Positions 1 through 24,593 of a stretch of 28,888 nt of DNA are shown here, one piece after another. The notes under the pieces are model-generated. The model worked only from the letters and a program-made list of their open reading frames with translations. It did no database searches and was not told the DNA's origin. The position numbers were made by a program, and so were the translations under genes. The stretch is taken from assembly GCA_018524725.1 (NCBI GenBank), contig JAEUWP010000047.1:1-28888 (forward strand), in the 5' to 3' direction. Positions within the stretch are counted from its first letter, which is position 1, and every line of letters starts with the position of its first letter. This DNA is from Podaxis mareebaensis (taxonomy: Eukaryota > Basidiomycota > Agaricomycetes > Agaricales > Agaricaceae).

Positions 1-48
1 TCAGTGCTTAAATGCTTCATGGAGAAGAAATCACTCACTATAGCATAA

Positions 49-2735
49 TCACGAAGTAGCGGGCATGTTCTGATTCAAGAAAGTCGTCGACCAGGCCTCC
101 ACGATCTTCGCAGCACGCCTTCCCTCTGTAAACCCCCGCAGCTTGTCGCGCCATTTCGTAGCACTGATGGGCACACGAAGATTGTTCTCGACGGCGTCGT
201 TCAGGATCGACGTGCTACGCTTCTTGTATAGCTCTTCAAGATGAGGCGACCATCGACCGTTGTTTTCACCGCTAGCTTCAAAGGTAGAGACAAGGGGATA
301 CCAAGACGATTTCAAAACGTTTTTCCCGACACCTGTTGATAGAGAATTAGAAGTGGCTTGAGGAGAATCAAGATAGCCTTACCTGTGAAACTCTTATAAA
401 GTCCACATAACACATCAAGTTCATCGTTTGTCAGGTCGTCGTCCAAGTACTCCACCCCATCGACGTCGCAGGCAACGAAGTTGTAGTTTGACTGCGGGTA
501 AACTCCAGACGGGCCTTTAAGCGCTTCGCTGACGCCAATGTGCCGCAGTGCCAATCGCCACACGAACCCTCCACGAAGAAGTGCAGCTCGGGCCCGTTTA
601 GAACACAGGATTGCGTGGCATTGTTTTTCCCAAGAATCGAAGTCTTTTCTGGTGAACACATGGCCCTGAAGTCGCATAGGCACTACCGAGCAGGCGAGTT
701 GATCCCGTTTGGGCTGCAAGCTCGCTCTCTTCTGCAGCGTTCGAAACGGAATCCCAGCAGACACCAATTCCATCACGATATCTTTCTCGCTCAGCTCATC
801 GTCGAGGCGGCAGATAAACAATGCGGCAGAGGCCGTGTAGACAGCGATATACCAAGGAACCGTAGCCTGGTCACGAAGGTCGAACATGTGGAGCAATTGC
901 TCGCCCGACTTCACCTTGCGGATGAACTTGAGCCGTCGGGCAAAACGAAGTTGTCGCCCACTGGACATTGAGAGGTCCCAAGTCAAAGGGTGGGGCTTCT
1001 TCTCTTCCTTAGCTGCCAGACACATTCCGAATTCGACGCACAACTGGCCGAGCGAGGTTTTCCAGAACATGTTGTCCGGTTTAACGGAAGTGGTGCCCAG
1101 CACCGCAATGACGGATCGAATATCGCCCAACCCTACAGCTCCCGCAGTTGCAAGCTCACTAGCCGGTTGAACAAAGCCGTAGAAATTTGTCAAGATCTCC
1201 AACACCTCCCATTTTGCCCGTTCAGCCAACCCTGCATAAGAAGTGGCAGTGAACTCGAAGGGTTGTAACCCTTTCTGTGCCGCTGAGGGCTGGCAGGCTG
1301 GACTGGCGATTGACATGGCAGGAGGTGCGGTTGACGTTGGTGAAACAGTTCGTCCCTCCGGCACAGGTGAAGACGCTCGAAAATCTGGCGCTTCCTCATC
1401 AGAGCTTTCGTCGCTGTCTTCAGGGTACTCTCCCCACTCTCGGCAACAGTTCCACTCATTGAAGTACGGGTCGTAGCGCTTTTGGTCCTTCCCGTACTCG
1501 TCTAGTGTCTCCTTGCGTTCATCCCGACGAACCAACGTTCGTACGAACCGAGTTGGATCATCGAAATCCCAATCCCACACGTAAACAGGAGCAGATTCCG
1601 TTGGTGGGCAGCGCTCACGATTCTCTCGTCGTTGCCGCTCCAGGGGGGTCTCCCTCGCTCGCCTCTTTGCACACGCGGCTTCACGCTTCTTCAACCAAGG
1701 CTCCCAGACAGCACGGCCGGATTTCGAAGGTAGTATTATATTCGTCCTTGCGCGCTTTTTGGGAGGTGATGACGAGGGGGGCGTAATTACCGAGGAGTGG
1801 TCTTGGGGTACAGCGAAATCGAAACTTGGTGTGACATCCGAAGGCCCGCAAAAATCGTCGTTCGTGAGATCTTGCGTCGAATTCGAAGCGGGAGTTGGGG
1901 AAATCCAGGTCGTGGCTTCCTGGAGTAACTCGGGAGGCGGTCGAATCAGCTTGAAATTGACGCCCTCCCGATTAGCCCATGCAATTTCTCTCTTGCCCCA
2001 ACGATACCAGACAGGGACTCCTTCACCAATAAACCATGCAGCGTGGGGCTGGTCAGGATGATCATCCGGAAAATGGAGGAGGAGACCGACTCGCTCCACA
2101 TTCCAAAATCTCTGCAGCAAAGGGGCAGTGCGAAACTGGTCCCACAAAATCTGGTCACTCCGCCACTTTACCAGCTGCGCAAACCAGCGAGGAGGTGTAA
2201 TGCCTTCCTCGAACTTCGGATCCTCTGGAACCTTTCTTGTCATCCAGAAAATCAGGCCTATCCACATTGCGAACCAGTCCCTGCCTTGTAAGATGTTGTA
2301 CCGAGCTGCTTGTTCGCTGACATGGCCGAGTTGGTATCCCCACTTGCATGGCGGAAACGGTGTAACGTAGCTCAAACCGTTTTCTTTTCCCAATAAATGG
2401 GCCACTTCCCACAAGAGTCGATCGACGACAAGCCACTGAGCGGAGATTTTTTCCTGCATGATAAACACATTGTTTTCTTTCAAAGGTATGTGCCTGGGAG
2501 TGAACGCCAACACCTCCAGGAGAGGACCATTGTAGCACACAGGTCTTTTCGGTACAAAGCCCAGCCACTCCGTACTCGCAGTCCACCAGTGTGGTTCGTC
2601 GAATGCCTCTATCGAAGTAGCTCCATGGGTAGTGAGCGAGGCTTTGTCGAAAGTGAACGGCAGGTTCTTGACATCGCGCTCACTGTTAGGAGAAAAAAAG
2701 ACGTCGCCATCGATAATTTGGACCCTTCCACGCAT
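49..2735 (-). CDS. Hypothetical protein, 878 aa, two exons
   Basis: I do not recognise a function. The model is complement(join(49..332,383..2735)). The 50-nt intron 333-382 begins GTAAGG and ends CAACAG, and splicing joins two frames into 878 codons plus TGA. The first ATG is at 2735-2733. Residues 1-280 are rich in aromatic residues, with GRDWFAMWIGLIFW near 151-164 and GVPVWYRWGKREIAW near 239-253. Residues 285-340 are Ser/Pro/Thr-rich and include a nuclear-localisation-like PPKKRARTN. Residues 345-375 are strongly basic. A Trp/Cys motif near 380-436 (VWDWDFDDP, YFNEWNCCREWG) is followed by an acidic stretch. From memory, similar proteins are expanded in Agaricomycete genomes without assigned function. 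There is no signal peptide. The gene is transcribed away from the transposase gene, and palindromes lie 24-107 bp upstream of its ATG. The open frame suggests recent activity or selection. Confidence 0.75.
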
Positions 2736-2758
2736 ATTGAAAACGATGTTCAGGAATG

Positions 2759-2842
2759 TCCCTGGTGATCCCAGGGAGTAGAACTCGCAATTTCTGGAGT
2801 ATCCCAGAAAGTTGAGTGTCGGTTTCTGGAGTTTCCCAGAAA
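2759..2842 (-). repeat. Left array of three covarying palindromes
   Basis: There are three palindromes with perfect 7-bp arms: 2759-2777 TCCCTGG-TGATC-CCAGGGA, 2791-2810 TTTCTGG-AGTATC-CCAGAAA, and 2823-2842 TTTCTGG-AGTTTC-CCAGAAA. Starts are 32 bp apart. The inner CTGG...CCAG is constant while the three outer base pairs vary and stay complementary. Read on the minus strand the spacers are GATCA, GATACT and GAAACT, so the array is the inverted counterpart of the right array. The array lies 24-107 bp upstream of the ATG of the 878-residue gene. Function is unknown; binding sites for a dimeric protein or subterminal transposon repeats are possible. Confidence 0.85.
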
Positions 2843-3196
2843 GACGTGTGTTAGGAAGAAAAATGGCGCTGAGAAAAACGGTCAGTTGCAGTGTAAGGAC
2901 GAGCCTCTATCTACTTACCCAGCTTTACGTTGGGTTCTATAGTTTGGTGTAAGAGAATGAGGGAAAATCCGAATAAGGTTGAAGTGTTTAGTCCTAGCGT
3001 GTGATACGATTAATAATTCGGACATTGCCGTTTCTCCTCCCAGCCATCACAAACACACTGGCTTACTACCCCCTACTACCGTCCGAGCTCGATATTTAGA
3101 ACGCCGGTAAGTACAACACTAACCGCCGCATTCCATGTTTAGGTATACCACTACACTACTCGGTTCGCCGAGTTCCCACTTCGCTGTTTTTCGGAC

Positions 3197-3281
3197 GCAC
3201 TGGGACACTCCAGTGCTCCTTTTTCAATCGTACTGGGACACTCCAGTACCCCTTGTTTCTCCATGCTGGGATCACCAGTAT
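3197..3281 (+). repeat. Right array of three covarying palindromes
   Basis: There are three palindromes: 3197-3216 GCACTGG-GACACT-CCAGTGC, 3230-3249 GTACTGG-GACACT-CCAGTAC, and 3263-3281 ATGCTGG-GATCA-CCAGTAT. The last has one G-T wobble. Starts are 33 bp apart. The outermost unit has the 5-nt spacer GATCA, exactly as the outermost unit of the left array does in inverse orientation. The array lies about 200-280 bp upstream of the transposase start codon. An 89-codon ORF runs through it but is probably chance. Confidence 0.85.
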
Positions 3282-3477
3282 CGTCGAGAGTTGATCGCAC
3301 AGTCTGAAAAACTGTTTTACGTTTATGTTCTATCTTGTGAAAACTTCGCCTGTCCTGTTCGAAGCAGGCCGCCCTGGTCTAGCGCGACCGACGCAGCCAC
3401 GTGATGCCCGACGCTGGCGGTCTCCGCAACTCCGCCTTCCTGTTGTCTCAAGTTGTTCCTGTATCACCACCTCTCCT

Positions 3478-6400
3478 ATGCACGTTTGGGGCATTCCTTT
3501 ACTTATCCTGATGACGCTTCAGTGTCTTGCGTGCGGTTACAAGGCTGGAAATCGTCAAGCTCTCAGCAAGCACTACAACGGGCACTGCAAGGAAGGGAAA
3601 CGAGTTCTGGCCGCTCTTCTTGAAAACGCCCTTGAGCCGATTCAATCCCAGGCCAAGATTCCTCGGACCGTACTCAAGGATGTCTCTCAGGAGCGTAACA
3701 AAGAAGACCAGGTCGCGATTCAGTCATCTGTACGTATCCAAATCGTTCATCTATGCTCAAACAGCTCATGTATGCTTGCAAACAGGTCTTGGAGCCCAAG
3801 TCTCTGCTTGAGCCTCAAACGTTGTACCTTCCACCTGAGGTTGGACCCCAGTCTCTGCCTGAACCTCGAGTGCAGGACCCTCCGCCTGAGGGTGAGCCCG
3901 GGCCTCTGCCTGAACCTCGAGTGCAGGACCCTCCGCCTGAGGCTGAGCCCGGGCCTCTGCCTGAGTCTCAAATGTTGGACCCTCCACCCGAGTCTCAAAT
4001 GTTGGATCCTCCGGCTGAGGCTGATCCGCCGCCTGACAACTACGTTTATCCGACCCGCTGTGGACGCCAGCGCAGAATGCCTAAACGGTTTCAAGATATG
4101 GTTCCTTCTCTCCTCACTCAGCTCCCGCACATGCCTCCCCCCGTTCCCCGAAGTGTCCCTCCAACGCCAGCACGTCCCGCCTCGTTTTCGCCATCACCTT
4201 CCCCAGAACCTGAACCGGTGGTTTGCGAAACAGAGCCCAATTCGTTTGGTCTGTATCGCGCCTACACGACTTTTCCTCAACGCGATCCCGAGGATGAACA
4301 AACCTTAGACAAGGTATGCGATGGGCCCGGTTTCTCGGTGAATCAGGAACCTGAGTTGCCGCGGTGGTGGTCGGGACTTATGCCCTCGCTGGACTCCTTG
4401 CCAAAGAATCCCTTCGCCCCCTTCAAGAACAAGACCCAATTTCTTCTCATGTCTTGGTTCTACGAAAATACAACGGCCAATTCCTTGACTTCTCTTGATA
4501 AACTGGTCGACGATGTCATCCTGCATGAAGATTTCGACAAGGAGGACTTGCGAGGTTTCAGTGCGTCTCGAGCGTCTCGAGCGTTAGATCAGACACAGGC
4601 GGGAAAAGAGGGATCAAGTGCACCAGAGTTTCTCTCCGAGAATACGTGGAAGACGGGCTCAGTCAAGCTTCGGATTCCTAAAGAGGGAAAGAGCTACAAG
4701 TCTGAGGATGAGGCTCCTACTGTAACGATTGACGGAATCTACTACCGCAGTTTGACAGAGGTTATTCGAACTGCTTTCCAAGATGAATCGGCTCGCTCTT
4801 TCCATTACACCCCCCACCGGCTATTTTGGAAACCCACGCCACAGTCTCAACCTGAACGCGTTATCTCCGAGCTCTACAACTCTGACGCCCTTCTCGAGGA
4901 ACACGAGAAACTACAGAAACAACCGCGGGAGCCAGGTTGTGAGCTGGAACGGTCTATCGCGAGCATTATGCTTTGGTCAGACTCGACTCACCTCGCAAAT
5001 TTTGGCACCGCTTCTATGTGGCCCGTCTACTGTTACTTCGGCAATCAATCCAAGTACGAGCGTGCAAAACCAACCCAGTTTGCTGCTCACCACCTTGCGT
5101 ACATCCCTTCCGTGAGTTTACCCTTGATACTACCAACTTTGTTCTCATCCCCGTTGTATTAGCTACCGGATGCAATTCAGGATGAGTACAAGAAGATTCA
5201 CGGTGTCCCAGCTTCTGCAACAATGTTGACTCACCTCAAGCGTGAACTCATGCACGCCATATGGGAGTTACTCCTGGATGAAGAGTTTACCGAGGCTTAT
5301 CAACATGGCATGGTCGTTCCATGTGCTGATGGTTTAACCCGACGACTATATCCTCGTATTGTTACGTATTCAGCCGATTATCCAGAGAAGTGAATCAATC
5401 CATGTCTGGTGGGCCACCATTCTCATAAACCTTACAGGGTGTTGCTCTCGACAATACGATTCTTGGGCGGCTGCCCTTGTCCGCGTTGTTACATCGAGAA
5501 GGATAAAATTAGCGCGCTGGGTACTATGGTTGACGACCAACGTCGAGCACATAAACGAATGGATAACTCTAGCTGTCAGTTCGACGTCAATCGCGCTCGT
5601 AAGATGATCTTCGAAGGTGGCCTGGCTGTCAATAGCACAGCGGTTGACAGGCTTCTCAAGCCCAAGTCTCAAACACCAACTCGGGTAAGTTTCATGTTCT
5701 TGTTCTTCTCCTAAACTGACTATCCAGTAGAACGCATTTTCAGAGCGGCTTTCGTCGTTCGGCTTTGAATACCACGCTATATTTGTCCCTGACCTCCTCC
5801 ATGAATTCGAACTTGGAACATGGAAGGCTGTCTTTGCGCATCTGGTACGGATCCTTTACGCTGCCGGTGGTTCGCGTATTCAGGCCCTCAACAAGCGGTA
5901 TGTTCTTGTCTATCATCTAGTTAATATCGCGCCAACTCAGTAATAGGTATCGCCAAACTCCAACCTTTGGCCGCAGCACTATTCGCAAATTCAGCAATAA
6001 TGCATCCGAAATGAAGAAGTTAGCGGGTCGAGACTTCGAGGATCTGCTTCAGGTTTGTGTTTTTATTATTTGGCCTAATGACTGATGCTTAGTTTCGTGT
6101 TAGTGTTCATTGCCTGTCTTTGAAGGCTTACTTCCCGAGCCTCATAATCGAACGATCCTCGATCTCTTGTTTTCCCTCTGCCACTGGCATGCCCTCGCCA
6201 AACTTCGCCTTCATACGTCAGGAACCCTTGACTCCCTTCATCTGGCAACAAGATCTTTGGGGAAAGCTTTACGAACGTTCATCAAGAAAACTTGTTCAAG
6301 TTATCAGACAAAAGAGGTTCCCCAAAATCACACGGGTCGCAGACAAGCACCAGTCCAGCAATCATTATCTTCGGTCAAGAGAGTCTTCAATGCTTGTACT

Positions 6401-7788
6401 TACAAGCTGCACGCTCTCGGTGACTATGTTGAGAGTATATGGCGTTATGGTACAACTGACGGATATTCGACACAAGTGGTATGTTAGATGTCTTACAGCC
6501 ATTGCTTTATCACTGATAATCACACAGGGGGAGCTTGAGCATCGACGTGTCAAACGCTTCTATGTTCGAACTAACAAACAGAGCTCGTATACAGAACAGA
6601 TCACAAAACATCAACGACGTGAATGCATGCTCAGGAAAATGAAGCAGCTGCACAGTCGCCCACCTCCCAATGACCCTGAAGATATCTTGCGTATCTCGCC
6701 CCGCGATCATCACTACATCTCGCCTTCACAGAAGACATATTACGATGTCACCCGCTGGTTAGGAACGCACATTGGTGATCCGGCTCTTGAGGTACGGCCT
6801 TCATTTATTCCTGGTACTTATTGTCATTGATGTACATTGGAGGATTTCCTGCCCAAATTGAAGAACCATATACTCTCTCGGATTCGAAATGACAGCATTG
6901 ACGCGACTTATCCTCTGGTTGAACAAAATGCGGTAGCATTTCGGTCCAATCGGCTTTATTATCGCAAGCGTCTTCAAGTTAATTACACCACCTATGACAT
7001 GCGTCGTACCCAGGACGTTATCAATCCCGACAGCCATGCCGATGTGATGGTTCTGATGCATCAGACCAATCCAGGTGACCATCCATATTGTTATGCTCGA
7101 GTTCTCCGGATATTTCATGCCGAGGTGCATGACAACACGCGCCGATCTACAAACCGGGACTCACAACACATGGAATTTCTATGGGTACGCTGGTATGAGT
7201 TGGATACATCATATGCGGCAGGGTTTGGAGCTAGAAGACTTCCCCGCTTGGTGTTTTCTACTGGTGCCGACGCCTTTGGTTTCCTCGATCCGAGAGATGT
7301 CATACGGGGGGTGCACTTGATTCCCGGTTATAAATCGGGTTATTCTAATGAATTAGGGCCAACAATAGCACGTCAACAATCAGACAACGATCAAGACTGG
7401 CAATATTTTTATGTTAATATGTATGGCTATTTATTTATTCTATGCACGCTTTTTGACGACCCGTTCTAGGTTTGTCGATCGAGATATGTTCATGCGGTTC
7501 CGAGGTGGTGGTGTTGGCCATGTGTCTACAGCAGGTGATAACCGCGTGGAAAGTGTGCAGACCGTCGACAACGACAACGATGATGACAGTGGTGATGAGG
7601 AACTCGATTTTCCTGGTATACGCGAGGAACTCGTTGATTATGGGTACGCTACAGGTAGACAGGCGATGAGTGGAGATAATGACGAGGAAGAGGAACCGCT
7701 GGAAGAGGATGAGAGTGATTGGGAGTCGGATGAGGGGGAATGGGTTGAGGACGATGCAGAGTTGGAGGGTTACGGGTCTTTTAACTAG
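3478..7788 (+). pseudogene. Plavaka-superfamily transposase, ten exons, one frameshift
   Basis: Transposase of a DNA transposon family known from Agaricomycetes, presumed to act in the nucleus. Exons: start..3729, 3786..5111, 5163..5390, 5438..5684, 5731..5897, 5947..6052, 6104..6478, 6528..6791, 6843..7420, 7470..7788. All nine introns are 46-56 nt and GT...AG. The ATG is at 3478 or 3511. A C2H2 finger (CLACGYKAGNRQALSKHYNGH) opens the protein and a Pro-rich repeat follows. The conserved core includes RVISELYNSDA, SIMLWSDSTHLANFG, CPCPRC, VPDLLHEFELGTWK, NNASEMKKLAGRDFEDLLQ and GELEHRRVKRFY; near the C-terminus are MEFLWVRWY, AFGFLDP, RGVHLIP and FVDRDMFMRFRGGGVGH. The acidic tail ends at TAG 7786-7788. 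From ATG 3511 the exons sum to 3829 nt, one more than a multiple of three. This matches one extra C in the run 5338-5341, which breaks the frame between DGLT and RRLYPR. Which Asp/Glu residues are catalytic is not certain. Confidence 0.85.
3825..4040 (+). repeat. Proline-rich tandem repeat inside the transposase N-terminus
   Basis: Exon 2 carries imperfect tandem repeats. A unit of about 51 bp encoding PLPEPRVQDPPPE(G/A)EPG occurs twice back to back, and a short unit encoding ESQMLDPP occurs twice after it. The encoded segment is Pro/Glu-rich and surely disordered, sitting between the C2H2 finger and the transposase core. It also leaves the opposite strand open, which creates spurious antisense ORFs. 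Confidence 0.7.
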
Positions 7789-8037
7789 GTGGATGTACTG
7801 TGAATTTTACAGCAAAAGTTTTGAGTGGTATAACGCTGATACATCCAAGGGATTGTGTGCATAAAAATGGTCTTCACGCGCTTCATAAGAAGGTTGTCCT
7901 CCTTCACTACCGACAGACCCTCAACCCTGCCCACTCCCAAAAACCTCAGCATCAACCAAACACCATTCCAGTCTTGCCCACGACCACGGCTAGGTCAGCG
8001 CGCTTGTTTAAGATTCTAAAACTATGAAACACCAAAC
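7789..8037. other. No gene recognised
   Basis: Sequence between the transposase stop and a gene relic. I see no coding signal I can support. It holds TTTTGAGTGGTATAAC at 7819-7834, which nearly matches a string at the right end of the window. Confidence 0.4.
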
Positions 8038-8537
8038 GATCGCGACTTCTCATCAGAAGAACCTACAAGGCTCCTCGAAGGTGAGCGCATCGTCCTAGGC
8101 AATCAGGACACTCAATTAACAGGTTGTAAACAGCTACTGTCGAAGCTGTCGCCAACTCCGGTGATGCCATCCGAGATCCAGAGGTCCTCGACGTCTTTCG
8201 AAGCGTCTTGAAATATTCAAGTTCTGTTCCTGGTACCGTCGTGAACAAAGTATTCGACTCGGTCACGGCCGGCTTACAAGGCGAAATCGAGATTACAAGG
8301 CGCGATATTGAGTCGGGTGACCAAGCGGCCGATGCCTCAGACAGGATTACACTCCAGCTTCCCGCACTTCTACTCCAGGGGCTTGTCATTGCGGCAGAAA
8401 GGGCTAGAGGTAAGGGTGACGATGGGTCACCTGCGTCTGCGCCCAGGGCGGGAAGGGGAAGGATTGGAAGGGCTGGTGCAGGAAGGGGTGCGAGAGCTGC
8501 CGCTGCTAGGAAGGGTGATCGAGCGGCGAAATTCTGA
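8038..8537 (+). pseudogene. Fragment resembling condensin subunit 1 (Cnd1/CAP-D2) N-terminus
   Basis: Two exon-like pieces read on through a likely intron. Exon A, from about 8038, encodes DRDFSSEEPTRLLE. The intron begins GTGAGC at 8077 and ends AAACAG near 8131. Exon B encodes TVEAVANSGDAIRDPEVLDV, then a helical stretch (VPGTVVNKVFDSVTAGLQGE, LPALLLQGLVIAAERARG), then a Gly/Arg/Ala-rich tail ending at TGA 8535-8537. As I recall it, this order resembles the N-terminal part of fungal condensin subunit 1, which helps compact mitotic chromosomes. The upstream frame is closed by TAA at 8017 and the rest of a protein of over 1,000 residues is missing. It therefore looks like a truncated or captured gene piece. 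The family assignment is from memory of the pattern and uncertain. Confidence 0.4.
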
Positions 8538-8730
8538 GGGAAATGGCTGGAGATTCTTTCAGCCGTCTGTCGAGGTGCAGGAGGAAGAGGGGGAGGAGAA
8601 AGAGAGCAGGAAAAGGGGAAGGGGAGAAGGAAAACGAGGATGATGAAGATGACGAGGATGAGGACGCGGAAGGGGGGGTGAAATTACGTTGGACACGTTC
8701 TTCCTCCTCGTCCCCATCCTCTTGCACTTC
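8538..8730. other. Purine-rich low-complexity stretch
   Basis: A GGA/GAA/GAT-rich run, densest at 8575-8680. It opens several frames on both strands giving Glu/Asp/Lys/Arg-rich or Ser/Pro-rich peptides. I see no conserved protein in any of them. Confidence 0.5.
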
Positions 8731-8879
8731 CTATCCTCTTTCTCGGTCGCATCGTATCTTTGCCTTCGTAACATAGACGTACGTTCGTCTTTTGACTAGC
8801 CCGCGTTCCCGGAGCCTGGGTGGGTGTTCTTCGTAGGCACGGAGCATAGCGTTCAACTGAGAAAAATCGGAGGCGTTTT

Positions 8880-9245
8880 GAGCGCGTTGGGGGAGTGAGA
8901 ATGGGGAACGTACGTACTCTATGCCTCCGTATCCTTCGTCCTCAGCATCGCCACCCCAATTACCACCGTCCTCCCTCTCGTCTCCACCCTGCTCGTTCCC
9001 ATCTAGGCTGTCGTTCCGTAACGTCGCACATCTTCGTCGTTGTCGTTGTCCTCGCGAGGATTCTCGGCCAATCTTCGTTCTGAGATCCCAGGTGAGTCTT
9101 CTGCATCCCCCCCGCCGTCTACATCGTATTCGCCATCCTGTTCGCTTTCCGTGCGGCTTCCAGCGCTCGTTCATGGGAGAAAACGCGTCGTCTTACGGGT
9201 GTTTCTAACAAATTGGAAATTGCGGTGCAGGCGGTGAAAGCTTCG
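8880..9245 (-). repeat. Diverged duplicate, copy 1, of an acidic coding-like segment
   Basis: Copy 1 of a segment repeated at 9415-9800. On the minus strand it encodes, in a changing frame, SERRLAENPREDNDNDED, then LRNDSLDGNEQGGD and EDEGY. The frame must shift between the first and second parts to keep matching copy 2, so copy 1 is broken. A GTACGT donor-like site follows. A further open stretch toward 8731 has no counterpart near copy 2. No known family recognised. Confidence 0.5.
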
Positions 9246-9414
9246 GTTCGTAAGTACTAGATACGCACCCGGCAGGATGTCTTGTCATCCCAAGTCTGAA
9301 GAGACCGTGTACTTGCGAGCCGGGATTAGCACGAACGACGAAGGGAATTCTATAACTCGGTTTATGAAAGGAATACTGAAGTAGGGACTACGGCGTTCCA
9401 CTGGACACGTTTTT

Positions 9415-9800
9415 GAGTACATTGGGGAGAGAGTATAGTTGGGAACGAAGGACGGTGCGTACCTTATGCCTTATGTCTCTGTGTCCGCTAAATACCCTTC
9501 ATCCTCGTCACCGCCCTCTTCTTCGCCTCCATCCTCCTCGTTCCTATCTAGGCTTTCGTTTCGCAACATACGCGCATCGTCCTCGTCGCCGTCATCCTTG
9601 CGAAGATTGTCGGCCAATCTACGTTCTGACTCGGTCCTAGGTGAGTTTTGCGTTTCCTGTTCATCGTCCGCATCGTATCCGCTGTTCTGACCGTCTTCTG
9701 TGTTGCTTTCAGCTTCCGTTCATTGAAGAATATTGTTTTCTTACCATTGTTCCTAGCGGATTGAGCGTTGCGACGGAGGCGGCGAAAGATTCGGTTGATG
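9415..9800 (-). repeat. Diverged duplicate, copy 2, of an acidic coding-like segment
   Basis: Copy 2, about 535 bp from copy 1. On the minus strand one frame stays open through TESERRLADNLRKDDGDED, RMLRNESLDRNEEDGG and EDEGYLADTET before a stop. The shared signature with copy 1 is SERRLA-N--R-D, then LRN-SLD-NE and DEGY, although the DNA is well diverged. This looks like an old local duplication of one exon of an unrecognised gene. Confidence 0.5.
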
Positions 9801-10039
9801 ACGCGGCGGTATCTAGAGTCGGTGAGCAGGCGCCAGGACTGTTATGAGAGTACTTACAGAGCAACCGGTTGGAAAGTGTTCATTCTGTAGCGTGTCAATA
9901 CTGTGTGCTTGATTGAAAAGAGAGACGAGATCAGTTCCAAGTCGCGAAGTTCATGTTCCCGCTATACATGTACAAACAAATAATTGGGCGTTGCTCGTAT
10001 TCACGGGTCTGAAGGGGTTTTTCACTTGAAAACGTCTAT

Positions 10040-10090
10040 TGTAGATACTGTAGGGCCTGTAGATACTGTAGATACTGTAGGTACTGTAGA
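10040..10090. repeat. Short tandem repeat, unit about 9 bp (GTAGATACT)
   Basis: TGTAGATACTGTAG occurs at 10040-10053. After a 5-bp break TGTAGATACTGTAGATACTG and TAGGTACTGTAG follow at 10059-10089. The unit is GTAGATACT with small changes. No function is evident. Confidence 0.7.
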
Positions 10091-10244
10091 ACGCGTTATA
10101 TTTAGGTCAGCTAAAATTAATCGGTGATCGCCAGGGCTGATGCGATATGTGGCCCGAACAGTTTACAATCTCTCCTACGCCTGCAAGATCTGCTGTCTAT
10201 ATAGCCATTTAAGCACTACTAACACTAATATGCCCATGTATGTT

Positions 10245-10485
10245 ATGCCAATGTTTTTTAATCTTACATTTTCGCTCATTATTCCGGAAAATGGAAAGAT
10301 TTTACATTTTGAATGCCGAAAAAATGTTGAATATGAATATCTACCCGAAATATCATTGCGGGTCAATACATTCTGAACAAAAGGATTCGATGGCGTAAGA
10401 AACGCGTTCAAATGTTTCGGCCATGCTGTTATACCGCCGAAAACATTGCGCGCCCTTACATACTGCTTCGAATGTTTTTTTTCGC
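10245..10485. repeat. AT-rich cluster of inverted CCGAAAACATT-like motifs
   Basis: The motif (C)CGAAAA(A)CATT and its complement recur. AATGTTTCGG near 10412 faces CCGAAAACATT near 10438 as a near-perfect inverted pair. Further members are CCGAAAAAATGTT near 10317, CCGAAATATCATTGCGGG near 10348 and GAATGTTTTTTTTCG near 10470. This may be the degraded end of a small DNA transposon. No target duplication was found. Confidence 0.4.
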
Positions 10486-10543
10486 TATTAATGTCTATTC
10501 TATCTTTTGAATACTATACATAGACCAAAATGTAATAATAGTT

Positions 10544-11302
10544 TTGAGCCATTTCACTGATGCTGATGACAACCACAAAGTCCATCTCTATGTCGACTCC
10601 ATTCCTGACTGGGTACAGCGACAACTCTATTTAACGACTCAACCTCCTACTACCTATGCCCAATGGCAAGCTGATGTTGCTAGGATTGTTAACAACTTCC
10701 AGCAGTATCAGATGCACAAGACCAGCAGAGGACCTTCTTCCCAGCTATCTTACTTTAATGATGCCTTCAACGATGTCCCTCAAAACAAATTTGTCTACAA
10801 AGAACGCCAACTCCCACCAGGTGAACCTATGGATATTGACGCACTTGAAGAGTTCTCTTCCAGAGATGAAGAAGAAATCCCCGACTTCTCCTCAGACAAA
10901 GAAGACGACTATGCCAAGCAAGGCATTTCAGTAAACGCCATCCTAACTGACAGGCAACAAGACTGAATGAAACATGGAGCATGCATCACCTGTGGTAACA
11001 TGAACCACTGGGCACGCTCATGCCCCCTCCATAGGAACTGACAATCTCTGATAAATCAGAGACAATTCCAGAAAGGAAAACGACTTTCCTCTCGGCCATC
11101 GGCCTCGACCCCCTCCTCTTCTTCGAACCGATCATGTCCTTCTTCTTCTTCCAATCCTTCTCCATCCCATCTCAACACCCTTAATGCAATTAAGGTTGCT
11201 TTCACCGAAATGACTGCTGAAGATCAGAATGAACTAGCTAATCATGCAATGGCCAAGATTGTTGAAGAAGAACAACAGTCTTTTCTGCAAGGACCAGAGT
11301 AG
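10544..11302 (+). pseudogene. gag: Gypsy-1 gag, C-terminal part with zinc knuckle
   Basis: Gag forms the cytoplasmic particle that packages element RNA. The N-terminus is missing; homology starts near FTDADDNHKVHLYVDSIPDW. A CCHC zinc knuckle, CITCGNMNHWARSC, lies at 10982-11023, followed by a Ser-rich tail. The frame carries in-frame TGA at 10964-10966 and 11039-11041 and ends at TAG 11300-11302. No TAA or TAG occurs inside. Pol starts 5 nt after the gag stop in another frame, so expression would need reinitiation or frameshifting. Confidence 0.8.
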
Positions 11303-18045: not shown

Positions 18046-21000
18046 TTAGTGAACGTCTGGAGCGCCGTGTAGTGTCAACCTCTCTTGTCGAGTAAGCCGT
18101 CGAGTGTTGTAATCTTCAAAAGTAATTGGTCCTTGTATCTGGTCAGTGAATGAAAAGGCTGCCGGGTTTTCGCGAAGGAACGAGATGAGCCAATGGATGT
18201 TCGTACGAATACCATATGGCCAGTGATAAAGGGGACAGTGATGAATAATGTGGTCCCGAGTCTCGAGTTCCTCGCCACATGGGCAGGAGGTAATGTAGCG
18301 CCCTGGGAAGAAGCGCTGTCTGAAGGCGCCAATAGGTGCGTGGTCGGTAACACAACGGGTGAAGCGTGTGCAAAGGTTTGGGTCAGTACCAAGACCCGAT
18401 GAGAGCCAGGTACCACCGTTGGTGTATTTGGGTTCCAGGGGTTGATCCGCGGAGTTGGTAAGGGGGAGCCAATTGTGGCCTCGGTGTTTGGGAACGTTCA
18501 TCTTTTGTCTCCAAAGGGCGAGACATTTTGTGGTGTAATGATTACGAACGTAACCTAGGGAGGTGCAGATGGGGAACCGTGGGTTGTTGGGTATGCGCAA
18601 CGACTTGGCGAGGTTGTGGGCTTGGAAGTGTACCGACCATTTTTCAGAGGAGGGGACTGACCAGAAGTGGATGTTGTTGATAGGGGAGGAGGACAACCAC
18701 TCTTGGAGGAGAGGAATGACTGCTAAAGCGTCCTTGTGAGCACTATGAGGGCCATAGTTAAAGAGTAATTTGGCGGAAGAGATAGAGTCTGTGAAAAAGG
18801 AAATAGAAGAACAGCCGCGAAAGAAGGCAAGAGAAATAGAAGCAAATAGACTGAGTCAGATAGCGTACGATTCAGAATCAGAGGAAAGTACTTCCCCACA
18901 GGGGTGAACAGAAGAGGAGAGAATATCAGAAGTTGAGGAGCTGAAAACAATGTAAGCAGAAGTGGCAGAAAGTCGCGGATTGAGAGGAACAGAACCATCA
19001 GAAGAAACTACCAATGAGACTGGAGAAGAAAGGGAAGAGTCTCTAGCTACATCGAGAGATTGAATGTATCTAGCCTTGACATTGTTATCGACAGGAGTGG
19101 GACATTGATGAAAGTGGATTTGGGATTCGAAGTGATCAACTAAACACTGACTGGGCTTGGCGCTTGGGTGTAGGCGCTTGGGTGTAGGCGGTTGAATCGG
19201 TCCGTGACTAATTGGGCGTCAGATATAAAATCCAACGCAGTGGACCTAATTTTGGTAAAGCACGCATCAAGGGGATCAACGTCACGTGTGAGGATTTTGA
19301 GGGGGTGGGAAGGGGGAAGGGTTTGGAAGCGAAGTGAACATCGCTTAGCGAGTTTGAATAGGTGGAGTTGGATGGGGATGAGACCAGCGATGGCCTCAAT
19401 TCCACCCGTGGGTGTTGTGCGAAATGCGCCGGTGATCCAAAGGGCTGCAGACCATTGCATTTGTTGGAGTTGTTTGATGAGGCTTCTGTATTGGCCATTT
19501 CGGTTGAACCACAGATGGAAGCCATATATGGCTATGGGGACAACACAAGACCTATAAAGGAGGCGTTTGTGAAGTGGGGAGAGGCCTCAGATGGAGTTGC
19601 CGAGAAGGCGCATGCATTTGACTGTGGAGAGCACCCTTGTAGAGTAGAATCGGACGTGTTCTTTGAAAGTAAGTGCCCGATCAAAATAGAATCCCAAATA
19701 TCTGAGGTGACGCTTTGGGATGAAGATGAGCCAACCATCTGTGGGATGATCGACGATGATATGTGGGTCAGGATCTGCCCAAGGACAGTTGGAAAAATGA
19801 AAAGCTTCAGTCTTGTCATGTTCAAGAGTGAGGCCCATTGAGGTTAGTAATTGTTCGCAACTAAGATATACGGAAGCGAGTAAATTACAGTTTGTATGAA
19901 AAGAGTCAGATTGTACGATAATGAGACCATCGTCTACAAAAGAGAGTAGTTTACACCGAGCATTGTTTGAGAATTTATGGATGAAAGGTGAAAGATAAAG
20001 AGCAGTAAGAATAGGGGAAAGAGCGGAGCCTTGGCCTATGCCTACAGAAGCAGGGGAGAAGTGTCTTTGTTCCAAGAGTATTTGGTAAAGCGATTGACTA
20101 GATAGTCTGAAAAGAACGAAATTATAGATGAATTAAAGCCATGTCTTTTGAGAATCTCAATTAAAAGAGAGTGGTTAATAGAAGGAAAGAATTGAGCGAC
20201 ATCAAAAGCGAGGACGCTCGTTTTCAAGTTCTTTTTCCATCCGGTACAGACCATATGGGTGACGAAGACTCCTGCATCTTCAGTGGAATGGTGGATGATA
20301 CCTCCGAATTGCAGAGGGTGTACAAGGTCGAATTGAGTGGATTCAAATTGGAGACGATTAGAGATCATCTTCTCGATAAGTTTGCCTAGGGTGTTAAGGA
20401 GGACTATTGGCCGGAACATTTTGGGCGTCGAGTAATGGGGTTTGTTCGGTTTAGGAATAATAACCGATGTAGACGTTTTGAAATATTCAGGCCACGTGTG
20501 AAATTGAATACACGCAGAGGCAAAGGATGTGAAGTTCGACTTGATAGTATCATCGGACATGAAGAATTTGATATGGGCCCATGTAAGATGGTCTGGGCCT
20601 GGGGCAGAGGAGTCGGCACAGGGTTGAAGAGCGTCTGTTAATTCTCTGGTTGAGAAAGGGGGCCAAGATCGTTCGACTTGTTCAGGAGTGAAGTTGGCTG
20701 TATTGAGATTGACTGGTCTGTTAGACGCCGCGTTGTACGTTTCATTGAGCGCTTTCCATAGGCTTTCCGGTTCATCGCATGGTTGTCCTTTGTGAAGGAT
20801 GGATTGGGATGGGGGGAGGTTCCGCTTTTTAACCCATGACATAAGGTCCCAAGGTCGTCTTTTTTCCTTTGAGATTTCTAGGATCTTTGCGTCAAAGAAG
20901 GCTCTCTTCGCTTTCTTCGTGGTGCGTCTGAAATTGCTCCAGTTGCTTTTGGTGCAGTGAGCATTAAAGGCATATAGGGCGTCTGAACACTGGTTGTTCC

Positions 21001-21985
21001 ACCAGGGTTTAGAACGACGACAAATTTTAACTTCTACTGAATTTGCATTCCATTCCTCGGAGACGATGTTGAAGATAGAGGATGCATATGTGTTGACATC
21101 ATCAGAAGATTCAAAATTTGGGGAGAGTGCCTTGAAGCGTAGCGAGCAGTTGTATAGAAAGAGAGCTTCTTCTTCGGAATCTCTAGGTATAGTACGTTTG
21201 ACAGTGATGGGAGTGGCAATGGATGACAGCAGAATGAGTGTGAGAAGAGGAACATGATCGGATCGGGATCTCCAATCATGTTGATAGGAATGTGAAGGGG
21301 CGGGGAGGTCCATCGGAGATACAGCGAAGATGAGATCGATAACTGTTGCCGACTTGTTGGGATCATCGGGAAAGTGTGTAGGGGAGTAATTGATCGGAGT
21401 GGATCTGGTAAGTCCGATCGTGTCCATGATGTCACTTAACAAATCAGCTTGTGCAGAATGATGGGGTGCATTGTGATTCCAGTCGGGAGACCTCGTGTTA
21501 AAGTCGCCTCCTGCATAACGGATGTTGCTAGGGAAGGAGGGGATACAAGATTCTAAATAGTCTATAGAAGACGAATCATTTGTCTTGAAGTAACAATTAA
21601 GGAAGTATTGTTTACTGGGAATAGAAAGGGAGAACATTTGGAAGTCAGGAGAAGAGATTATGTTGGGGTGGATGGTAGGTTTAAGAGACTGAATAGATTT
21701 ACGAACATATGTAAGAACGCGAGGTTTATAAATTGATTGGTCATGAAGTAAGAGCCAATCCCTATGAATAGGCGGTCCTTCCATTGGGTCTCCTTCAGAG
21801 GCCGATGTGGACGGAATGTTACGAATGAACCTGAAGGCAGGTTCTTGCAGGCATAGAATGTGAACGTCTTTGAGAAGTGGGGAATTTAAGAGGAATTCTA
21901 CGGTAGACCAGTTCTTTTGTACATTAAATGAGCAAATCGAGATGTTAGATAACGAAGCAATGTTATGAGAAGATTGTTCAGACAT
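18046..21985 (-). pseudogene. LINE ORF2: endonuclease, reverse transcriptase, RNase H
   Basis: ATG at 21985-21983. The APE-type endonuclease is intact (ICSFNVQKN, LCLQEP, GGDFNTRSPDW, SATVIDLIF, RSRSDHVPL). The RT follows (SVIIPKPNKP, FRPIVLLNTLGKLIEKM, GIGQGSALSPIL, FVDD), then RNase H (SSDGS, SDSESYA, FFTDS) and a C-terminal CxC-x8-H-x4-C motif (CPCGEELETRDHIIHHC). Lesions: one base missing in the C run at 20053-20056 just before GIGQG; TGA at 19587-19589 and 18856-18858 where Arg is expected; and a 14-bp tandem duplication at 19160-19187. Removing one 14-bp copy restores frame into RNase H. Otherwise the reading is continuous to TAG-free sequence ending at 18046. The enzyme nicks target DNA and copies the element RNA in place, but this copy cannot make it intact. 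Confidence 0.9.
19160..19187 (-). repeat. 14-bp tandem duplication disrupting LINE ORF2
   Basis: GCGCTTGGGTGTAG occurs twice in a row (19160-19173 and 19174-19187). Fourteen is not a multiple of three, so the frame closes at a TAG soon after. One copy alone would keep the frame into RNase H. Confidence 0.85.
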
Positions 21986-22040
21986 TAATAGCACGGGAGT
22001 TGTAATCGGACTTTGCCTTCTCAGTTTTCATTTCTCTGAG

Positions 22041-24593
22041 TCAGTTGACGATCCATTCTTTGTCGAATCTATGATGGAAGAATGGGCATTTGTCGCTGTT
22101 TACGTGGTGATCTTTGGAACCACATGAAAGGCAATTGAATGATGCTATGTGAGGGCATTCCGTGATGTTAGCAGGGGTGGGAGGGCGGGGGTTAGGACCT
22201 GCTTTGCCGCGACAGCAGTACCCATCACGATGGTGGTTGTCAGTGTGGTGAGGGTCACCACAGATGGAACACCTGGGATTACGTGCTCTGCATAAGTGAG
22301 TGGGGTGACCCCATCTCCAACACCAGTTGCATAAAGGGCTTGCGACCCTCATACTGGCTCCTCGGAATGTACACACCCTGTTGTTGAAGAGGATAGTGTG
22401 ATTGATGTAGAGCTTGGCCTTTGATGCTGACTGAGAGTCCCAAAGATCAAAGAAGAGATTGGCCGAGTCTGAATGAGGTGACACTCGGCAGAACCTGGGT
22501 TTACCAACTAGATGATTGACGATGTCGGCATAAGGGGAGGCATCGATGGTGGGTTTTATGTCATCGGCTGTGAGCGGAGTACCATCTTCCTTGAAATATG
22601 GGAGATTGGTAAGTTTGATGAAGGATTTGGACATTGGGAGCAATGGGTTAACCGCATTCCTGATTTCCTGGGTAGCAAGGGCTGACCTGTTAGAGTCAGA
22701 GATGCCTTTTTTGATGGTGCTAAGTTCAGCCTCCGTTGCGACAGAACTAGTGTTGAGCCAGAGAGTACGCTCATTCTTCTTCGCTGACTCAATGCGAAGA
22801 GGAAGATTTTTTTGGTAAAGCTCATTATTGCAGCATTGAACGACGAGGTCCAATGATGTAATCATGAGATGAGTAAATGTGTCGTTGAATGGAACAACAA
22901 CATTCTTGCGAGATGGGCCTTGTGTGGCCTTCGGTTGTGAAGATCGAGGGGAGGAGGTTTTGGGAGCAGGCGATTTAATGTCACCTGCATTACGTAGGAA
23001 GTTGATGATGTTGATCGGCGACATCGAGGGAAATTGATTTTGAAGAGCTGCATATTTTTGAAGCTCTTCTACTTTAAGTGGGGTCTGAGAGGCCGCCTTG
23101 GAATAAGACGTCTTTTGAGTAGAGGGAGATGGAGCGCCAGACCTGTACTGAGGTTTGGTGGAATTGTTGATAGGGGGAGGAGTGGAGGAAGGGGAGGAGG
23201 GGCGAGGAAGATTGGTGGGGGGGATGGTTTCCTTTGGAGGGAATGTGGGGGCCACACTAGGCTTACGCTGGGCAGGAGCGGCTACTGTTTTATGAGGCGC
23301 CCGGTGGCGATTAACTGTAGACCAGGAATTAGGGTTAGGAGTAGGGTTAGCCCTCTCCTGGCTGGATGGACCAGGGGTATCGGAGATAGTGGGTTGGGTG
23401 GGGGGAGGGAGCATGTCAGAATCAACGATAGAGGTTGATGACTCACCTGGCTTGTTTGGGTTAGCGGGTGGGAGGCGTGAAAGGGCGATTGCTCGCGCAG
23501 TGTCCTTGTCGAATTGTGCATCTGAGCTTTGGGACTGCCCAATAGCATCAGAAGGAATAGGGGAGGTGAAGCTCTGGGACTGCCCAGTAGCATCGCCTTT
23601 AGGGGATGGGGAGGACACTGCCGGAGCTTTTTCAGCCCGGCGTTCTTGACGGTGGCCCGTGGACATGGGAGTGGGAGTAGGAGATAAGGTATGGGCAGGG
23701 GGGAATTGCATGGATATGGTGTCATAGAGACGCACATTGTGGTTGTTGAAAGGGACAGATTTGCCCCGGAGCTGTTCAGAGTGAGCGATTGTCTGAATAA
23801 GGTGAATGATGGAGGAAGTGCCCTCGAATGTAGAGAAGTCCCCTCCATTGTTAGCCCATGAAGATAGCCAACTGGAGGTGTATGAAAGCAGCGCCGTAAG
23901 TAGGTCGAGCGCCTTTGGGTAGGTAATATTAGTGACGTCGATGATACTAAAGATGTCACAAAGAGAAGAATGGATTGCTGACCAATCCGTTCCGCAGGAC
24001 ACAGGGTCTGTGCCTTGAGGCTGAGAGTTGACTGGGGGGAAGGAGGCGGGGGTGAAGGTGGGAAGAGTAGGGAGGGGATCAGAAGGATGGGATTCGTCCC
24101 AGGCTAATCCAGGAGTAGGAGAGACAAAGCCGTATGAGGAAGCAATGGCTTGGGCGGGTGAGAGGACCCTCTGAGAGGGGGCAACTTCAGGGGAGAGGTC
24201 GATGTCCTCACGAGTCGGCTCGAAGGATTGAGCTATAGATTTGGGGGTGGAAGTGCCCTGGGATTGTTCCTCATTTTCTTCCGCTGAGGAGACAGATGCA
24301 GCATCATCGTCTTCTCTTAATTTCATACTCTTCTCCAGTCGATTGGAGAGAGAGTGGTCGGTGGAGTAGGAGTGTTTAGCTCCAATAGAAGGAGAGGGTG
24401 AAGGTGGCTTCTTGAGGAAGTCTTCGGAGATCTGGAAGTCGTTGAAGAGAGGGACTGAGGCCTCTCGAGGTAAAGTGGGGTTGGGTGCTATGCTGGTGCT
24501 TGAATGCTGATGACGAGCGACGCCGGAACGAATGCTGCTGGCGGTTTTCTTGAGACCTCCAAAGAGACCGCTAGACTCTTTGGTATCTTTCAT
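22041..24593 (-). CDS. LINE ORF1, Gag-like protein, 850 aa
   Basis: An intact ORF from ATG 24593. In Tad/L1-like elements ORF1 encodes an RNA-binding protein that coats element RNA. Residues 1-530 are mostly Ser/Pro/Thr-rich and disordered, with a possibly folded stretch near 210-290. A more ordered region follows at about 560-750. The C-terminus has three Cys/His clusters at about 755-836: CNWCWRWGHPTHLC, CSICGDPHHTDNHH and CLSCGSKDHHVNSDKC. The length is large for an ORF1 but normal for fungal Tad-like elements. The ORF2 ATG lies 55 nt downstream. Unlike ORF2, it has no lesion. Confidence 0.85.
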   Translation of the reverse strand: MKDTKESSGLFGGLKKTASSIRSGVARHQHSSTSIAPNPTLPREASVPLFNDFQISEDFLKKPPSPSPSIGAKHSYSTDHSLSNRLEKSMKLREDDDAASVSSAEENEEQSQGTSTPKSIAQSFEPTREDIDLSPEVAPSQRVLSPAQAIASSYGFVSPTPGLAWDESHPSDPLPTLPTFTPASFPPVNSQPQGTDPVSCGTDWSAIHSSLCDIFSIIDVTNITYPKALDLLTALLSYTSSWLSSWANNGGDFSTFEGTSSIIHLIQTIAHSEQLRGKSVPFNNHNVRLYDTISMQFPPAHTLSPTPTPMSTGHRQERRAEKAPAVSSPSPKGDATGQSQSFTSPIPSDAIGQSQSSDAQFDKDTARAIALSRLPPANPNKPGESSTSIVDSDMLPPPTQPTISDTPGPSSQERANPTPNPNSWSTVNRHRAPHKTVAAPAQRKPSVAPTFPPKETIPPTNLPRPSSPSSTPPPINNSTKPQYRSGAPSPSTQKTSYSKAASQTPLKVEELQKYAALQNQFPSMSPINIINFLRNAGDIKSPAPKTSSPRSSQPKATQGPSRKNVVVPFNDTFTHLMITSLDLVVQCCNNELYQKNLPLRIESAKKNERTLWLNTSSVATEAELSTIKKGISDSNRSALATQEIRNAVNPLLPMSKSFIKLTNLPYFKEDGTPLTADDIKPTIDASPYADIVNHLVGKPRFCRVSPHSDSANLFFDLWDSQSASKAKLYINHTILFNNRVCTFRGASMRVASPLCNWCWRWGHPTHLCRARNPRCSICGDPHHTDNHHRDGYCCRGKAGPNPRPPTPANITECPHIASFNCLSCGSKDHHVNSDKCPFFHHRFDKEWIVN

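Follow-up and report, generated by a model that had tools for sequence, protein, structure and literature searches.

Two mutually inverted arrays of short hairpins lie between two divergent genes in Podaxis mareebaensis, within what is by its termini and transposase domain a PlavakaB-type DNA transposon. Covarying hairpins with the same strand orientation, position and uniformity of loop class were found upstream of diverged relatives of the left gene, and hairpins of this kind also occur in the ORF1 of LINEs. The reading that we favour, with slightly less than even confidence, is that two divergent PlavakaB-type mRNAs carry the arrays in their 5' leaders as RNA recognition hairpins, which a specific RNA-binding protein reads. 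From these patterns in one genome we infer RNA as the functional form, binding by a protein, a candidate for that protein and an effect of the binding.

Hairpins and genes in the window

The window is the whole stretch of DNA that was analysed, 28,888 nucleotides of contig JAEUWP010000047.1. The six hairpins, written on their sense strand as outer triplet, upper stem, loop, upper stem and outer triplet, are as follows.

2759..2777, minus strand, hairpin L1, closest to the left gene: TCC-CTGG-GATCA-CCAG-GGA, unbulged; as RNA -13.5 kcal/mol, z -1.9
2791..2810, minus strand, hairpin L2: TTT-CTGG-GATACT-CCAG-AAA; RNA fold z -3.6
2823..2842, minus strand, hairpin L3: TTT-CTGG-GAAACT-CCAG-AAA; RNA fold z -3.4
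3197..3216, plus strand, hairpin R1: GCA-CTGG-GACACT-CCAG-TGC; RNA fold z -5.0
3230..3249, plus strand, hairpin R2: GTA-CTGG-GACACT-CCAG-TAC; RNA fold z -2.6
3263..3281, plus strand, hairpin R3, closest to the right gene: ATG-CTGG-GATCA-CCAG-TAT, one G-U; RNA fold z -2.2
2762-2774, 2794-2807 and 2826-2839, sense minus: CTGG/CCAG cores of the left array, by direct reading
3200-3213, 3233-3246 and 3266-3278, sense plus: CTGG/CCAG cores of the right array, by direct reading
312..2735, minus strand: left gene, encoding the 807-aa protein P0001, no Pfam domain
3511..5429, plus strand: right gene, with a Plavaka transposase domain (PF18759) at 4647-5429, 87.6 bits (cut-off 26.3)
2869..2918, minus strand: predicted intron in the left gene's leader (GTAAGT, branch CTGAC, acceptor TTTCTCAG), a pattern match lying upstream of the hairpins
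1..10562, no strand: part of the PlavakaB-type transposon in this contig, with its right terminus at 10562 (CTGATG end) and its left terminus off the contig

Direct reading of the sequence agreed with an earlier, sequence-only reading of six palindromes with 7-bp arms in two mutually inverted arrays, located between two divergent genes, and bore out the start spacings of 32, 32, 33 and 33 bp and the 5-nt loop GATCA in the gene-nearest unit of each array with GANACT in the inner four. The outer pairs are likewise as described, 17 of 18 being Watson-Crick and one G-T (triplets TCC/GGA, TTT/AAA twice, GCA/TGC, GTA/TAC and ATG/TAT). When each hairpin is folded as an isolated RNA the drawn structure results, often with one extra pair closing the 6-nt loops. 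In copies C53, C332, C364, C415, C178 and C219 the first upper pair of the leftmost unit is T-G, not C-G, and outer pairs are disrupted in some of these copies.

Chance palindromes were ruled out on two counts: exact sites of CTGGGANACTCCAG number 108 in the 36.95-Mb genome and those of the reversed pattern 0, and a hairpin scan of the C364 copy (14,535 bp) gave 16 strand-hits at 9 places, against a mean of 0.33 and a maximum of 2 in 100 order-1 Markov sequences. CTGGGATCACCAG occurs at 9 sites in the genome vs 5 for its control, so that, away from the focal element, this half of the design is close to what chance gives. A known Rfam family was rejected as the identity of the hairpins, since 4227 covariance models gave 0 matches over the window at the gathering threshold and 0 at E<=1 over 2400-3700.

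A genome search with P0001 returned 46 matches, comprising eight close loci (78-100% identity, the window's own included) and diverged matches of 33-48% identity, some of them in pieces; relatives in the protein collection came from Macrolepiota, Agaricus, Leucoagaricus, Leucocoprinus and Ephemerocybe. Structure comparison of P0001 gave no convincing match among solved folds and no RNA-binding fold. For the right gene the ATG at 3511 is the suggested start, and a C2H2-like finger, CLACGYKAGNRQALSKHYNGHC, was read by eye there.

The carrier element

The arrays had been proposed to be the subterminal parts of an element of about 523 bp; this did not hold, as copies align far past both arrays and have their shared ends elsewhere. 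In copy alignments the left end common to copies is C53:25401 = C332:73101 = C415:38563 = C364:70837, and the right end is window 10562 = C219:10933 = C332:62761 = C364:85371. The element measures about 14.5 kb in C364 (70837-85371) and about 10.3 kb in C332. All 8 ends examined (4 left, 4 right) begin CATCAG when read inward, and the two copies in which both ends are present, C364 and C332, have target duplications of 2 bp (TT and GT, respectively). Because the copies end at shared points far outside the arrays, these are internal, and on its sequence features the carrier is a PlavakaB-type DNA transposon. PlavakaB elements have been characterized by a PF18759 transposase, CATCA..TGATG termini and a 2- or 3-bp target duplication (PMC12730594). 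The focal element is alike in its PF18759 domain, its CATCA..TGATG termini and its 2-bp duplication, and differs in carrying the 807-aa P0001 gene and the hairpin arrays; passages of the PlavakaB description mention neither a P0001-like gene nor such arrays, and the word 'hairpin' occurs 0 times in its main text (PMC12730594).

The distance from array to terminus is about 6 kb on the left and 7-8 kb on the right, which does not fit a CACTA-like subterminal position. C364, C332, C53 and C415 have a third, irregular group of units, which follows P0001 downstream, shares its strand and lies about 2.9-3.1 kb in from the element's left end; beyond the transposase gene on the right, the hairpin scan of the element copy found no units.

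Offset BLAST hits between copies indicated tandem-like internal repeats of about 52 bp at window 3789-4019, in the N-terminal part of the Plavaka ORF. In decayed copies of P0001 and of the LINE ORF1 described below, stops are mostly TGA, as decay of methylated CpG or a RIP-like process predicts.

Hairpin design and covariation in diverged relatives

For 17 diverged P0001-like genes a stretch of at most 1.7 kb about the gene start was sampled, and arrays were present upstream of the gene in 14 of the 17 loci, the usual hairpin array being missing at C397, C305 and C202. The related loci C305 and C202 have other strong palindromes at the equivalent place (L052 263-287, L053 1415-1437), for example ATATATCTAG-ACAAC-CTAGATATAT, and further along GCACATG/CATGTGC vs GTGCATG/CATGCAC; by their sequence these are perhaps a fourth hairpin type.

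The fuller plan of the relatives consists of a covarying lower stem, one bulged 5' base, an upper stem of 4 bp and a 6-nt loop, as in these examples.

TAGTT-A-CTGG-GCATCA-CCAG-AACTA
TGTATC-A-TTGG-GTAGTC-CCAA-GATACA
GCC-A-CTGG-GCATCA-CCAG-GGC
GCT-A-CAGG-GCAGTC-CCTG-AGC

The relatives were selected by upper stem and loop, not by lower stem, with a loop list taken from the same loci; identical rows were removed, and the six focal hairpins were kept out of the set. Among the resulting 46 distinct hairpins the bulged base is A in 38, and in the bulged register lower-stem pairs 1 to 4 are formed in 45, 45, 39 and 33, compared with 4, 32, 1 and 26 in the unbulged register. Pairing reached 89.1% of cells vs 72.8 +/- 1.4 in shuffled sets and the covariation score 0.534 vs 0.231, neither being reached in any of 500 shuffles, although the loci are related and the shuffles therefore overstate both scores. 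Sliding the register by one to three columns reduced pairing to 30-48%. Fully paired triplet combinations account for 11 of the 14 distinct ones in the lower stem. Two measures that depend less on kinship were weak: both-side pair changes numbered 7 vs 6.1 shuffled (81/500), and further pair types 19 vs 17.4 (88/500). At the four inner lower pairs G-U occupies 13 cells and A-C mismatches 11; as G-U does not exceed A-C, wobble gives no identification of the strand.

Pairing of the hairpins is thus supported by covariation in the aligned sequences, in agreement with the earlier proposal that pairing rather than sequence is kept. Random spacing and orientation and a lack of covariation, which had been named as grounds for abandoning that proposal, were looked for and did not occur. 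Unbulged pairing was rejected as the general rule, with 64.9% in the relatives and 76% in the LINE/C14 set described below. The focal family is an unbulged variant: none of its six hairpins has the bulge, and they fit the bulged covariance model poorly (best 8.6 bits).

Strand and presumed leader position

In the transposon loci all 65 of 65 matched sites, counted like the within-element loop pairs below over positions up to 950 of each stretch, follow one strand rule, the left units sharing the strand of P0001 and the right units having the opposite one, which in the focal family makes the latter sense to the Plavaka gene. Leaders were deduced from start codons and predicted introns. The end of hairpin L1 is 24 nt before the A of the P0001 ATG and the left array spans 24-107 nt before that start, and the right hairpins are 230-314 nt before the suggested transposase start. 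By pattern match without a shuffle control, 9 of 15 loci have a predicted leader intron ahead of the left array and 3 of 15 have one on the right side, the window having none on the right.

The right-hand gene was examined in three relatives (C51, C424 and C173). Long ORFs lie on the expected strand in C51 and, mostly, in C424. In the C51 type of element (L055 1183-2334, L054 1988-2874) the Plavaka domain is downstream of P0001 on the same strand, and pieces of DUF6698 occupy the divergent side in the expected orientation, so that similar leader arrays accompany a different partner gene. At C173 the longest ORFs to the right of the array run on the minus strand, opposite to the right-hand hairpins, so that no gene was matched with the right units there. 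One minus-strand ORF in L056 (C173:28600-33000) has a cysteine-protease-like box, NQSCWLDTCLQLLY, read by eye.

The same hairpins in LINE ORF1

A covariance model was built from the 46 diverged-locus hairpins, without the focal ones, and run over 21 loci (214,760 bases); its top two matches were both inside the ORF1 of a LINE in the same window.

23568..23594, minus strand, LINE hairpin 1: GCT-A-CTGG-GCAGTC-CCAG-AGC, 35.7 bits
23523..23549, minus strand, LINE hairpin 2, 45 nt downstream: GCT-A-TTGG-GCAGTC-CCAA-AGC, 30.9 bits
22041..24593, minus strand: LINE ORF1, 850 aa, with C-terminal CCHC-like knuckles by eye and no Pfam match above cut-off
20042..21994, minus strand: LINE ORF2, with endonuclease (PF14529) and reverse transcriptase (PF00078) domains

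By its ORF2 domains this second carrier is a non-LTR retrotransposon. Its two hairpins differ by a compensated pair (CTGG/CCAG vs TTGG/CCAA), and no further strong model match was found in the window's LINE. DNA comparison placed many other genome sites in copies of this LINE, and the covariance model gave other LINE copies 13-20.6 bits. From 341 first-look candidates 53 ORF1 copies were scored; at least one listed exact-pattern site was present in 38 and none in 15, and 45 of the 47 listed sites lie at 994-1018 or 1048-1063 nt from the start, the other two at 454 and 673.

All 47 of these sites are sense, and because the same hairpin is found on the coding strand of an element that moves through RNA, with only that strand used, it is better understood as RNA than as DNA. 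The earlier suggestion of DNA that must form hairpins is to be read in this sense.

A set of 25 hairpins from LINEs and from an array in C14, likewise selected by upper stem and loop and not by lower stem, with identical rows removed and L006, L015, L016 and CAGG-type rows left out, was paired to 97.7% in the bulged register vs 87.7 +/- 1.0 shuffled (0/500), with a covariation score of 0.353 vs 0.140 (0/500). Both-side pair changes in this set numbered 4 vs 2.2 shuffled (36/500), and pair types 5 vs 6.6, fewer than shuffled (500/500). The residues of ORF1 covary as pairing needs: GCC/GGC gives DASG..QGS, GCT/AGC gives DATG..QSS, GTC/GAC gives DVTG..QDS and ATC/GAT gives DITG..QDS. A peptide motif was rejected as the cause of the ORF1 hairpins, since the peptide changes along with the stem; moreover, the 32- or 35-nt array spacing cannot keep one frame.

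A second, diverged LINE type (L004), with an ORF1 frame broken by a stop, has one hairpin in that frame, and this hairpin with its flanking peptide is also present in five sampled sites. Among the 251 genome sites listed of 271, 122 stayed unassigned after comparison for overlap with ORF1 and P0001-like loci. Of eight sampled from these, five belonged to the second LINE type and one to a copy of the first LINE, one had a similar stem, and one was an array beside a gene. The C14 array (L071 196-330, C14:43695-43829) consists of four such hairpins in tandem, 36 bp apart and near a gene, with units TGCA-A-TTGG..CCAA-TGCA, GTACA-A-TTGG..CCAA-TGTAC and GTGCA-A-CTGG..CCAA-TGCAC. In C47 (L006 1501-1574) a hairpin of 9 bp whose loop is GATACT, together with another hairpin 60 bp off, lies on the strand opposite to a Copia-like polyprotein, identified by eye, in a gap of its frame.

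Loop classes

Most loops belong to three classes, GYAGUC-like, GYAUCN and GANACU/GAUCA, and all three are present in both DNA transposons and LINEs. Loops within an element agreed in 119 of 137 pairs, against a shuffle mean of 44 and a maximum of 67 (2000 shuffles); the 18 discordant pairs involve the loops UCAUUC (C51 type) and GUUUCU (two LINE copies) and the mixed C14 array. In 14 of 14 loci the loop class of the left array is also that of the right one. Of the pairs at LINE spacing (42 or 45 nt), 28 of 29 agree in class, where shuffles gave a mean of 10.8 and a maximum of 21; this comparison used 151 of the 251 listed sites, 82 at P0001-like loci having been dropped, as well as 18 removed by hand that were taken for chance by their loops or context. 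Relatedness inflates these agreement counts; the pattern is nonetheless the same in elements of two classes. Such uniformity is what one specific reader per element would produce.

The putative reader and the alternatives

According to the favoured reading, the hairpin, with its short variable lower stem, usually one 5' bulged base (mostly A), 4-bp upper stem and 5-6-nt loop, would be recognized by a sequence- and structure-specific RNA-binding protein that reads loop and bulge, with one specificity per element. The most likely role of the hairpin would be that of an operator or assembly site near the start codon, in translation control or RNP formation. As the arrays accompany the P0001 gene and each element has a uniform loop class, the element's own 807-aa P0001 is the leading candidate for the binder, and given the structure comparison this is a guess. 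Since LINEs in the genome carry the same hairpins in ORF1, LINE RNA would be bound by the same proteins. P0001 residues 514-526 and LINE ORF1 residues 149-161 both have a short YGFVxPxP stretch, which by its sequence could be a short linear motif common to the two; a profile comparison of P0001 with ORF1 gave a probability of 0.6%, without significance.

Because LINEs carry the hairpins and no P0001-like gene was seen in the LINE, a host protein is nearly as likely a binder as P0001. The corresponding explanation, to which we give appreciably less credence than to the favoured one, is a host RNA-binding protein with few paralogues (an export, translation or anti-silencing factor), the transposons having converged on the hairpin or passed it around and P0001 having another job. 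It agrees with the occurrence of the same three loop classes in DNA transposons and LINEs and with the shared class of LINE-spaced pairs, but uniformity of class per element is equally predicted by an element-encoded binder, and no site was traced to a host gene, assignment having been by overlap with ORF1 and P0001-like loci, which left 122 of 251 sites unassigned. A more ambitious version of the element-encoded reader, in which the three loop classes form a shared RNA code marking Plavaka and LINE elements, P0001-family proteins read it and LINEs live on or are policed by proteins of DNA transposons, seems to us improbable.

The remaining explanations are much less probable still. In CACTA elements, subterminal repeats serve as duplex binding sites, and the arrays could similarly be duplex DNA sites for a palindrome-reading transposase or accessory protein in a bidirectional promoter, in keeping with their place between divergent genes, their near-helical spacing and the further units about 2.9-3.1 kb from the left end. 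A binder of duplex DNA should conserve letters rather than pairing, however, and the lower stem varies with compensation; the sense-only hairpins in ORF1 coding sequence and the lack of scanned units right of the transposase gene also argue against such sites, and we consider them quite unlikely. A marginally smaller chance is given to packaging signals that load transposon RNAs into the capsid of a dsRNA virus or an element-encoded shell, the part that a stem-loop with a bulged 5' A plays in yeast L-A virus. Several copies are present per presumed RNA, and the plan is similar to that of the totivirus signal, whose 5' A bulge is essential and whose loop begins and ends with G and C (PMC8951182). 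Against packaging, no match to the totivirus-type polymerase PF02123 was found in the genome, a weak negative, as control genomes matched none either; one hairpin pattern retrieved 6 IMG/VR contigs in two sequence groups, near a rough chance estimate, and in the one contig inspected (L058) the match was in a long ORF read as a phage portal gene. Least probable of all is recognition by the LINE reverse transcriptase, with transcripts of the DNA transposon caught by the same machinery: the plan resembles that of the 3' stem-loop which stringent LINEs recognize (PMC5135761), but the hairpins lie in ORF1, about 1.0 kb from its start, and not in the 3' UTR, and the window's LINE has no further strong match.

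Relation to known systems and significance

In its plan the hairpin resembles two recognition elements of viruses. In phage-type coat operators a protein encoded by the element itself binds the hairpin and represses translation. The coat operator of phage PP7 has a 5' bulged A, 4 bp and a 6-nt loop and is close to a start codon, and the general plan of the present hairpins has these features; they differ in that PP7 is a bacterial virus, that the loop letters are not the same and that the binder here is only a candidate. In the totivirus packaging signal the sequence of the stem is free. It has been described as requiring a bulged A 5' of the loop and as having G and C at the two ends of that loop (PMC8951182), and a packaging stem-loop of 24 nt is mentioned elsewhere (PMC7721687). 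The L-A-like totivirus signal is a short stem-loop of similar plan; among the relatives' hairpins the base at the bulge position is A in 38 of 46, loop position 1 is G in 38 of 46 and loop position 6 is C in 21 of 46, and the six focal hairpins have no bulge. The totivirus signal differs in being a viral RNA bound by Gag-Pol, whereas transposon-leader arrays and LINE ORF1 pairs are found here; upper stem and loop comprise 14 nt here vs 11 in the totivirus signal, and no viral gene was found. The hairpins may work like the totivirus signal and the PP7 operator, which is a likeness of plan and does not imply membership. The 3' stem-loop of stringent LINEs is described with a 5-7-nt loop, an 8-10-bp stem and a bulge 4-6 bp from the loop (PMC5135761). 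The present hairpins differ in that they sit within ORF1 as pairs spaced by 42 or 45 nt and are also shared with DNA transposons; their location about 1.0 kb into ORF1 does not fit the 3'-end location of the stringent-LINE stem-loop.

No description of hairpins common to DNA transposons and LINEs was found in the literature, and, to our knowledge, cis signals are not known to be common to transposons of class I and class II. Compensated structure in both classes, with loop types near-uniform per element, points to a trans-acting RNA-binding protein that would serve or control unrelated elements. The P0001 family, to which no function has been assigned, thereby gains a testable ligand, for which the three loop classes would provide an internal control.
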